The notes beneath the pieces were generated by a model. It saw only the letters and a list, made by a program, of their open reading frames with translations, searched no databases and had not been told where the DNA came from. From Aurantiacibacter rhizosphaerae (GTDB lineage Bacteria > Pseudomonadota > Alphaproteobacteria > Sphingomonadales > Sphingomonadaceae), in assembly GCF_009807005.1 (NCBI RefSeq), contig NZ_WUBR01000001.1, positions 1-64,000 on the forward strand: DNA of 64,000 nucleotides, written 5' to 3'. A program made the translations under genes and the position numbers. Positions 8,255 to 57,118 of the stretch are shown here, piece after piece. Position 1 is the stretch's first letter; each line of letters opens with the position of its first letter.

Positions 8255-8377
8255 TATATTCCTCCTGCGTAATGCCCCCATTTGTGGAGGTTGCAGGAAA
8301 GGAAACGCCGATTGCAGTAGGTTGTTCCGGTCACTCGATCCCGGCTGCTGCAATTTTGTTCAAAACGCGAGAATTGT

Positions 8378-8677
8378 TCAATATTTCAACTGGCGCTCAT
8401 ACAGGTCGCGATAATGCTGGATGCGGGTAACGCGCAGGCCCTGCATGCCGGAACGATCGACGGCGCGCTGCCAGCCGGCGAACTCTTCCAGCGTGAGGTT
8501 GTAGCGTTCGAGGACCTCGTCAATCGTCAGCAACCCGCCGTTTACGGCCGCAACAACCTCCGCCTTGCGACGCACGACCCAGCGCTTCGTCTTGGGAGAA
8601 GGAAGATCGTTGATCGTTAGCGGTTCCCCCAGGGGGCCGATCACTTGCGCTGGTCGGATTTTCTGGTTTTCGATCAT
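8378..8677 (-). CDS. sciP: SciP-type CtrA inhibitor (DUF1153)
   Basis: The 99-residue helix-turn-helix protein matches SciP, the small protein that in Caulobacter binds DNA and CtrA and blocks CtrA-dependent transcription. The signature is all here: VIGPLGEPLTINDLP, RWVVRRKAEVV (32-42), GGLLTIDEVLERYNLTLEEF and the C-terminal TRIQHYR. The ATG at 8677 has GAGGA six bases upstream. That ATG overlaps the stop of the upstream unknown gene as ATGA, so the two are probably translationally coupled. The divergent region ahead of the pair carries a CtrA-like box. Confidence 0.93.
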   Translation of the reverse strand: MIENQKIRPAQVIGPLGEPLTINDLPSPKTKRWVVRRKAEVVAAVNGGLLTIDEVLERYNLTLEEFAGWQRAVDRSGMQGLRVTRIQHYRDLYERQLKY

Positions 8678-9036
8678 GTGTTTCCTCGGGTGGCCCTTGT
8701 GTCGCAATCATTGTCGCAATCAACGTCGCGATCAGCGTGTGGACTATGTTGTGCAGCGTGGCCTTTGCGATTGGCTAAATCATCAGGGTTAACAACAGGT
8801 TCGTTTTCGCCCTGCAGGTGACATTCGTGTTGCGAGGCAAGATGCCGCGCGGAGTCGGCATCGAAGCTGGCAAGCACACTCGATCCGCAGGCGGCCAGCT
8901 CTGCGCGCAGCTCTCTGGCTGCGGTCAGCCGGGCGACGAGATCGGCCCATTGCAATTCGCACAGCGTATCCTCCGGCATTTCGCCGGTGGCGGAATTGCG
9001 CGAGTCGAGCGCTTCTGGAATATTCCCTTCGAACAT
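8674..9036 (-). CDS. Small hypothetical protein coupled to sciP
   Basis: This is a 120-residue soluble protein that I cannot assign to a characterised family. It has an acidic start (MFEGNIPEALDSRNSATGE), a helical middle rich in Leu and Ala, and a His/Asp/Cys-rich tail (HSPHADRDVDCDNDCD) encoded by a 12-bp tandem repeat. The ATG at 9036 is preferred to the GTG at 9042, though neither has a good Shine-Dalgarno. Its ATGA overlap with sciP suggests a shared transcript and co-translation. It could instead be an extended leader frame, but its coding character and position argue for a real gene. Confidence 0.65.
   Translation of the reverse strand: MFEGNIPEALDSRNSATGEMPEDTLCELQWADLVARLTAARELRAELAACGSSVLASFDADSARHLASQHECHLQGENEPVVNPDDLANRKGHAAQHSPHADRDVDCDNDCDTRATRGNT
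8701..8736. repeat. 12-bp tandem repeat, three copies, in the sciP-coupled gene
   Basis: Three consecutive 12-mers: GTCGCAATCATT, GTCGCAATCAAC, GTCGCGATCAGC. The period is a multiple of three, so copy-number change would lengthen or shorten the acidic, Cys-containing tail (DRDVDCDNDCD) without shifting frame. Confidence 0.85.
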
Positions 9037-9072
9037 GCCCACTGTATCTAGGCAGCAAGCGTCAAGATCGGG

Positions 9073-9088
9073 TAAATCTTGTTTTAAC
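9073..9088. promoter_or_regulatory. CtrA-like binding site between sciP operon and mnmA
   Basis: TAAA, seven bases, then TTAAC matches the alphaproteobacterial CtrA consensus TTAA-N7-TTAAC except for one base in the first half. It lies 37 bases ahead of the unknown gene's start on the minus strand and 65 bases ahead of mnmA. In Caulobacter the sciP promoter is itself controlled by CtrA, so the position makes sense. The match is short and could be chance. Confidence 0.4.
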
Positions 9089-9152
9089 CGAAACTTGACG
9101 TGCGCATTGGGGATTTTGCGTGATGCCCCGTGTAGTGTAGGGGCGCTGCATT

Positions 9153-10319
9153 ATGTCCAGCATCGCCGACTTTCCTCTTTCGGTTAACGCCGAGCAGCTT
9201 TTCGACCTGCCGCGCCCCGCGTCTGAATGCCGGATCGTGGTGGCCATGTCCGGCGGCGTGGATTCCTCCGTCGTCGCGGCGCTGGCTGCGCGCAGCGGCG
9301 CGGAAGTGATGGGCATCACCCTGCAATTATACGATTATGGCGCGGCCACGGGGCGCAAGGGCGCGTGCTGTGCGGGCGATGATATCAACGATGCGCGCAT
9401 GGTGGCAGACAGGCTGGGCATCGCCCATTACGTGTTCGATCACGAAAGCAGCTTTCGCGAAGACGTGGTCGAGACATTTGCCGATGAATACCTGGCCGGT
9501 CGCACGCCCATCCCCTGCATCCGTTGCAACATGGGGCCCAAGTTCACCGATCTGCTGCGCATGGCGAAGGAACTGGGCGCCGACTGCCTCGCCACCGGCC
9601 ATTACGTGCGCCGCGTGGAAGGCGAAGCTGGCCCGGAACTGCACCGCGCGCTGGATCCGGCGCGGGACCAGTCGTATTTCCTCTATGCCACGACCGAAGA
9701 ACAGCTGGATTACCTGCGTTTTCCTCTGGGCGGCCTGCCCAAGACAGAGGTACGCGCGATTGCCGAGGAATTCGGCCTGCGCGTGGCGAACAAGCCCGAC
9801 AGCCAGGATATCTGCTTCGTTCCCGATGGCGATTACGCCAAGATCGTGAAGTCCATGCGGCCCGAAGGCGCGCGCGCGGGCAACATCGTGCATGCCGAAA
9901 CGGGCGATGTGCTGGGCCAGCATCCCGGCATCATCCACTACACCGTTGGCCAGCGGCGCGGCCTGGACATCGGCGGCCAGCCGGAACCGCTCTATGTGGT
10001 TGGAATGGATGCTGAAAAGGCAGAAGTGCTGGTGGGCCCGCGCCGCATGCTGGCGGTGCAGGCGGCTGAGATTATCGAAACCAATCGCATCGGCCCGCTG
10101 CCCGAAGCGCCGCTGACGGCAAAGGTGCGATCACTGGCACAGCCGGTGCCGGTCACGCTGGAAGGCAAGCCCGGCGATGGCGAGACCATAACGATCCGCT
10201 TCGCATCGCCCGAATTTGGCGTTGCGCCCGGACAGGCGGCGGTGATCTATGCAGGAGACCGCGTCATCGGCGGTGGCTGGATCGAGGAAACCGAAAAGGC
10301 CGTTGCGGCTCAAGGCTAG
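9153..10319 (+). CDS. mnmA: tRNA 2-thiouridine(34) synthase MnmA
   Basis: This cytosolic ATP-dependent enzyme puts sulfur on C2 of U34 in Lys, Glu and Gln tRNAs. It has the PP-loop SGGVDSS at residues 33-39, the first catalytic Cys in the CN motif (C125) and the second in SQDIC (C221), followed by the C-terminal barrel domain. The length of 388 is slightly more than the usual ~370 because of an N-terminal extension. The Shine-Dalgarno before the ATG is weak (AGGGG, ten bases away). mnmE and mnmG, which modify the same wobble uridine at C5, lie 51 kb away in this window. Its stop overlaps the convergent gene's stop at CTAG. Confidence 0.96.
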
Positions 10320-57035: not shown

Positions 57036-57118
57036 CCAGCGCATCCTGCCCCTGAACGGGACAGCTTTCCAGAAACTCTGGGATTCCCGCGTGTTTCGTA
57101 GGTAAATATGGGGTTAAC

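Follow-up and report, generated by a model that had tools for sequence, protein, structure and literature searches.

The gene sciP of Aurantiacibacter rhizosphaerae is probably served by two CtrA-type promoters. One of them, P1, lies ahead of an unnamed small-protein gene situated immediately upstream of sciP and would drive a leaderless message through both genes, while the other, P2, is embedded in the small-protein gene itself. We put the probability of this arrangement at roughly two in three, with CtrA binding, the transcription start sites and the regulatory loop all deduced from sequence. Directly observed in the window (the complete stretch of 64,000 nucleotides from contig NZ_WUBR01000001.1 that was analyzed) and in its relatives are a conserved gene, its adjacency to sciP, two conserved DNA blocks, a freeze of synonymous sites across one of them and a change of the frame in which that block is read. 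The output of CtrA is shaped by a feedback of which SciP forms one half. Should Sphingomonadaceae indeed possess two CtrA-type sciP promoters, one of them inside an uncharacterized gene, this loop would be wired differently than in the model drawn from Caulobacter.

A small-protein gene conserved upstream of sciP

The sciP gene (DUF1153) occupies positions 8378-8677 on the minus strand and encodes a 99-residue protein of the CtrA inhibitor family (PF06627, E 2.5e-41) that also passes the NCBIfam model for 'CtrA inhibitor SciP', NF051866, with 140.6 bits at a cut-off of 100 and is thus a full family member by score. The small-protein gene resides at 8674-9036 (minus strand) and specifies 120 residues from its ATG; an alternative GTG start would extend it to 8674-9042. 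Its neighbor on the other side is the divergently oriented mnmA gene for tRNA 2-thiouridine synthase (9153-10319, plus strand; NF001138, 407 bits, cut-off 284). As the original prediction had it, the stop codon of the 120-residue frame overlaps the SciP start: the small ORF ends with ACA TGA, SciP begins with ATG ATC, and the ATGA at 8674-8677 is shared.

A tblastn search detected the small ORF in all 37 genomes examined from the same genus and in none of the 24 from other families of the same order. Within the family, 58 of 249 genomes were found with the single sequence (tblastn) versus 95 of 249 with a profile. Fifty-six loci, here termed first type, were fetched for the 38 tblastn places in the genus and the 58 in the family, the remaining places being without a locus, and sciP follows directly downstream in every one of them (56/56). 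The junction is an ATGA in 38 cases, a one-base overlap in six, an eight-base overlap in one, a zero gap in ten and a gap of 8 nt in one, meaning that the small ORF overlaps or abuts sciP in 55/56 loci. For alignment A1 the locus L007 was omitted, being near-identical to L006. The reading frame at this place is conserved in relatives, both throughout the genus (37/37) and beside sciP (56/56), and 8674-9036 is a real, conserved and unnamed gene. Its co-expression with sciP is likely because the two overlap or abut in 55/56 loci and a conserved CtrA-type box is located upstream. To this extent, a conserved gene coupled to sciP behind a CtrA-type box, the original prediction stands, whereas the C-terminal tail to which it attached meaning does not hold up as a protein feature.

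Selection at the protein level is confined to about the first 76 residues. Codons 1-76 (8809-9036, minus strand), featuring the stretches MFEG.., L..L.W.DLVARL.AAR.LR and ASFDA.SARHLA, have free synonymous sites, with a pS of 0.531, a pN of 0.245, a pN/pS of 0.46 and a dN/dS of about 0.32 among the nine closest relatives; the pN/pS of SciP is 0.013. M1, W30 and F58 are invariant in the alignment of the small protein. An AlphaFold2 model of the latter contains two longer helices (residues 30-49 and 60-75) and two helices of four residues each, has a mean pLDDT of 69 and a pTM of 0.31, and yields no confident fold. The window protein has no match in Pfam, NCBIfam or the PDB. DUF6222 (PF19731), matched by 12 of 55 aligned proteins with a best E-value of 0.001, was rejected as a relative in view of the weak E-values, the helix-rich composition and the missing match for the window protein. 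Three designed three-helix bundles in the PDB, retrieved with the alignment profile (best E 0.0015), were judged to be compositional.

A frozen element within the coding sequence

Codons 82-91 of the small-protein gene (VNPDDLANRK) overlap the element TTAACC-N8-TTAG-N7-CAAA at 8764-8792 (minus strand), which we term P2, and their pS among the nine closest relatives is as low as 0.063 versus 0.531 in codons 1-76. At the third position, codons 82, 83, 86, 87 and 89 show no variation across the 55 aligned rows. Wherever codon 82 specifies valine it is GTT (43/43), and it is otherwise ATT for isoleucine (11 rows) or GGT for glycine (one row); asparagine at codon 83 is AAC in 55/55 rows, and leucine at codon 87 is TTA in 46/46, with the serine codon TCA in the other nine rows. 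In the background usage of these genes, TTA makes up 0.3% of leucine codons and GTT 12.3% of those for valine.

The element is found near sciP throughout the family. Our collection comprises 146 sciP loci, i.e. the 56 first-type loci plus L087-L176, with some genomes counted twice; removing duplicates and sequences shorter than 300 nt leaves 138 distinct upstream regions. By tblastn, mnmA was located upstream of sciP in all but two of the loci L087-L176 (88/90). P2 scores at least 10/12 in 137/146 loci and below 10/12 in 9/146, and in the 137 loci the block, TTWACC-N7-TTYAG plus AAA, is positioned 55-135 nt before sciP. Among the distinct upstream regions, 119/138 reach at least 11/12, compared with none for the reversed pattern and 1/690 for shuffles. 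The G of GTTAACC is 92 nt away from the sciP ATG in most first-type loci. A possible, if weak, -10 of P2 in the window would be CAACATAG at 8744-8751 (minus strand), suggested by position +41 of the element, which is A in 80% of the 137 loci.

All first-type ORFs read P2 in a single frame (VNPDDLANGK, 56/56). Among the remaining loci, ORFs of a second type (MDMxF..GSFNP) were delimited in 42 cases, with their starts chosen by script and eye; 34 of these went into the frame count, which covers 90/146 family loci, and 25 into alignment A3, while L121, L124, L125, L134, L135, L141, L144 and L148 were excluded (of these, L124 and L125 resemble members ending before P2). Ten of the 34 have P2 in the first-type frame, three read it in another frame (FTRGFQ), four stop inside it (FTLAF-stop, FTLRG-stop), 15 end before it and two are without P2. 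Because relatives shift the frame, stop inside the element or leave it outside the ORF, the stretch is conserved as DNA and not as a protein motif. It may be that the ORF found between mnmA and sciP in second-type loci is the first-type gene. The first type is matched at 1e-7 to 1e-12 by three intermediates that have a second-type-like start; in a direct comparison of the two types, hhalign returned a probability of 2.6, with shuffled decoys ranking higher.

Some further features touch upon this stretch. L053 carries a second VN/GTTAAC copy about 113 nt before sciP, ahead of P2, and an extra TTAAC occurs about 21 nt upstream of P2 in several loci. In the window, an antisense ORF of 75 codons (8565-8792, plus strand) ends exactly at a TAA inside P2. 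That the sites are frozen on account of antisense coding was judged by eye to be unlikely, since the DNA crossed by this ORF varies, and a hammerhead-like reading of P2 (CUGAUGA..AAA) was discarded with a core that, by eye, is not conserved. A search of 8300-9250 against Rfam returned only a sub-threshold match to a CRISPR repeat and no family at P2.

Counterparts of P2 in other families and orders

The CtrA box is TTAA-N7-TTAA (PMC4287350, PMC9437464; these papers and PMC7987155 are cited here for the parts of their text available to us). The half-sites of P2 in the window, TTAG-N7-CAAA, agree with TTAG-N7-TTAA in six of eight letters and have the 7-bp spacing of the CtrA type. A perfect TTAG-N7-TTAA is located before sciP in 22 of 29 loci hand-picked from genomes with sciP in other families of the order (reversed 1, shuffles 1/290) and in 18 of 27 loci from other orders (reversed 0, shuffles 2/270), the latter being the best-scoring loci of the matching genomes (60 of 152 genomes matched, three of these in the window's family). 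Typical loci of other families read TTAACC-N7-TTAG-N7-TTAA, followed by a -10-like TAT. The perfect box is present in 0/146 loci of the window's family, where the second half-site has drifted, mostly to NMAA, and the gap between TTWACC and TTAG is, by eye, one base longer than in the other-order loci. When the family form TTWACC-N8-TYAG-N7-NMAA is used, 12/13 is reached in 56/56 and 71/90 family loci (reversed 0, shuffles 0/560 and 1/900). As to the genomic context, 24/29 other-family loci have no open frame of 80 codons on the same strand that terminates close to sciP. In four of six that were inspected sciP follows flgE, all four frames having been identified as FlgE, as opposed to mnmA-ORF-sciP here.

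We read P2 as a CtrA-type promoter because its out-of-family counterpart TTAG-N7-TTAA has CtrA spacing. Most likely, 8764-8792 is sciP's own CtrA-type promoter that was overrun by the small ORF, with CtrA as its presumed ligand, and P2 apparently represents the class-wide, ancestral sciP promoter. CtrA is encoded in the genome of A. rhizosphaerae (424.7 bits, cut-off 350). In Caulobacter and Brevundimonas sciP is activated by CtrA, and mutating both half-sites of the Brevundimonas sciP promoter (TAAA and TTAG, N7) abolished transcription (PMC7987155). The Brevundimonas box may be taken as support for P2 and not as identity; TTAG may be the downstream half-site there. The sciP promoters of Caulobacter crescentus and Brevundimonas subvibrioides (PMC7987155) share with P2 the two-half-site box, the 7-bp spacing and the TTAG half-site. 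Unlike in these species, the box described here lies inside a small gene (the available part of PMC7987155 mentions no gene overlapping the box), its second half-site is degenerate, and a second promoter-like block is located about 295 nt upstream. The shared promoter with a CtrA-like box that the original prediction assigned to both genes would be only one part of the picture: the upstream box is real, but the second CtrA-type promoter-like element inside the ORF had been overlooked. With a probable class-wide CtrA-type promoter inside the ORF, coupling to the small gene is probably neither the only nor the ancestral mode of sciP expression.

The upstream box and a putative leaderless message

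P1 comprises the box TTAA-N7-TTTA-N7-TTGA(C) at 9061-9087 (minus strand), again with CtrA-type spacing. It includes the near-consensus CtrA box already proposed ahead of the ORF, TAAATCTTGTTTTAA at 9073-9087, which is indeed present and deviates from TTAA-N7-TTAA by one mismatch. Upstream of the ORF, TTTA-N7-TTGA is found in 56/56 loci and the overlapping TWAA-N7-TTTA, corresponding to the proposed box, in 45/56, with reversed patterns in none. The window contains five one-mismatch TTAA-N7-TTAA sites versus 2.04 expected, a count reached by 6 of 100 shuffles and unremarkable on its own; we regard the P1 box as real because it is conserved across loci. On the family level, TTTACC-N4-CTTGAC scores at least 11/12 in 81 of the 138 distinct sciP-upstream regions (reversed 0, shuffles 1/690), and second-type loci contain TTTACC-N-TTCA/TTAT variants of P1.

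The box is followed by a -10-like CTAGATA (9045-9051, minus strand), from which transcription would start at the adenine of the start codon (9036), rendering the message leaderless. A TA step is located 10-14 nt before the small-ORF ATG in 56/56 loci; the control stretch -33 to -21 has one in 6/56 and the stretch -60 to -48, which lies over the box, in 48/56. Position -1 of the small ORF is C in 51/56 loci, and a Shine-Dalgarno-like 4-mer precedes the small ORF in 11/56 loci versus 47/56 for sciP. The distance from the second half-site to the -10-like letters amounts to 14-16 nt and is roughly equal in P1 and P2. Taken from the letters, P1 reads as the CtrA-type promoter of a leaderless mRNA.

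In Caulobacter, 209 operons have internal start sites, sciP is among the genes with a CtrA motif, and CCNA_01391 is leaderless with TTAT-N7-TCAA at -32 (PMC4287350). The situation described here resembles these internal and leaderless CtrA transcripts in that a CtrA-type box is found near -35 of a (here putatively) leaderless gene and promoters lie within operons. It differs in that, in many species, protein-coding DNA is visibly shaped by the putative promoter; in the available text of PMC4287350, the Caulobacter sciP promoter is not placed inside a gene. L170 and L173 contain a P1-like box and an ORF and have no recognizable P2 (8/12); sciP may depend on P1 alone in these two cases.

The His/Asp/Cys tail and the sciP leader

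The remaining part of the small-protein gene up to the ribosome-binding site of sciP, 8689-8763 (minus strand), would largely be sciP leader when transcribed from P2. The repeat tail rich in histidine, aspartate and cysteine that had originally been pointed out is present, with 12-nt tandem repeats at 8700-8723 encoding DCDNDCD, but it is not conserved: its pN/pS among the nine closest relatives is 1.08, and the distance from P2 to sciP is 116 nt in the window, L020 and L044 versus 92 nt in most of the 56 loci. We regard the tail as unconstrained leader DNA with private repeats that happens to be read as part of the ORF, and not as a domain. The Shine-Dalgarno sequence of sciP, GAGGAA (8682-8687, minus strand), lies within the last codons of the small ORF. 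GCGAC is the SciP half-motif in Caulobacter (PMC4287350). Autoregulation by SciP via GCGAC/GTCGC in the tail was considered and dropped: 55 copies in the last 90 nt compare with 34 in shuffles but with 86 in a control stretch.

Proposed regulation of sciP and alternative readings

In the two-promoter model, P1 (9061-9087) would give rise to a leaderless mRNA that begins at the ATG of the small protein and runs on into sciP; the latter shares the ATGA with the stop of the small gene and would be served by its own Shine-Dalgarno sequence. P2 (8764-8792), in the 3' half of the small gene, would produce an mRNA for sciP only. The codons crossing P2 would be dictated by it, and the C-terminal part of the small protein would be promoter and leader read as protein. 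Upon a rise of CtrA~P both promoters would fire, SciP would accumulate and exert a negative loop on CtrA-activated promoters, and the small protein would be made together with SciP. Against this model stand the just 81/138 regions in which P1 reaches at least 11/12, the perfect TTAG-N7-TTAA box in 0/146 family loci, and the number of P1 and P2 strings in the organism's own genome (three and one sites), which is smaller than a CtrA regulon might show.

It is conceivable that the ligand of the frozen codons 82-91 is a factor different from CtrA, or that these codons function at the level of the mRNA, in which case P2 would regulate sciP without being a CtrA box. The low frequency of TTAACC-NT-N5-TTNAG (one site in the own genome and 0-3 in 22 other genomes of the genus), that of the canonical TTAA-N7-TTAA (two places in the own genome) and the degenerate second half-site throughout the family sample would be in line with this. 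The class-wide counterpart with canonical CtrA half-sites and spacing, the CtrA activation of sciP in Caulobacter and Brevundimonas (PMC7987155) and the lack of an Rfam family at the place speak against this reading, however, and we consider it unlikely. Far less credible is that codons 82-91 form a conserved protein motif with incidental conservation of the DNA. N83 and K91 are indeed invariant in 55 rows, but synonymous sites are frozen and rare codons fixed, some relatives have the same DNA in another frame or outside the ORF, and 24/29 other-family loci lack a same-strand frame of 80 codons ending near sciP. This case may serve as a warning that conserved 'motifs' of small proteins can be promoters, as became apparent here from relatives in which this DNA is read in a different frame.

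Possibly, the small protein works together with SciP or CtrA, in that it binds or stabilizes SciP or adapts it for a protease, and is kept adjacent for the sake of stoichiometry via translational coupling, which would be compatible with two promoters. Overlap or abutment in 55/56 first-type loci, protein-level selection on codons 1-76 and the invariant M1, W30 and F58 point in this direction. We nevertheless think of a partner as rather doubtful, as the ORF ends before P2, uncoupled, in 15/34 second-type loci, diverges fast (pN/pS 0.46 versus 0.013 for SciP) and has an AlphaFold2 model without a confident fold. A role of the His/Asp/Cys tail as a domain for metal binding or interactions is suggested by its residue composition only and is highly improbable with a pN/pS of 1.08 and a spacing that is 24 nt shorter in most of the 56 loci. 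A more speculative combination, to which we attach little likelihood, is that Sphingomonadaceae possess a new small protein, timed by CtrA, with an effect on the SciP/CtrA switch, that its leaderless message carries the class-old sciP promoter and that read-through from P1 may tune P2.

Literature searches on SciP, CtrA, DUF1153 and Sphingomonadales topics, mostly outside subscription journals, yielded no publication on this locus.

Genome-wide occurrence of the P1 and P2 strings and of SciP

A genome-wide regulon under the P1 and P2 strings was considered and rejected, with one P2 site and three P1-like sites (TWAA-N7-TTTACC) in the own genome, two of the latter not at genes recognized by eye as cell-cycle genes. 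One of the three, at 57101-57117 (minus strand), is situated between two plus-strand ORFs. The canonical TTAA-N7-TTAA is found in two places in the own genome versus 28 for the reversed pattern; the base order differs between the two, making this a hint at most, and no depletion is claimed. The region upstream of ctrA contains TTAACC and no strict full CtrA box. PF06627 finds no match in any of the four genomes of genus g45 (G083, G167, G227 and G272) and several copies in some family genomes, e.g. four matches in G068.
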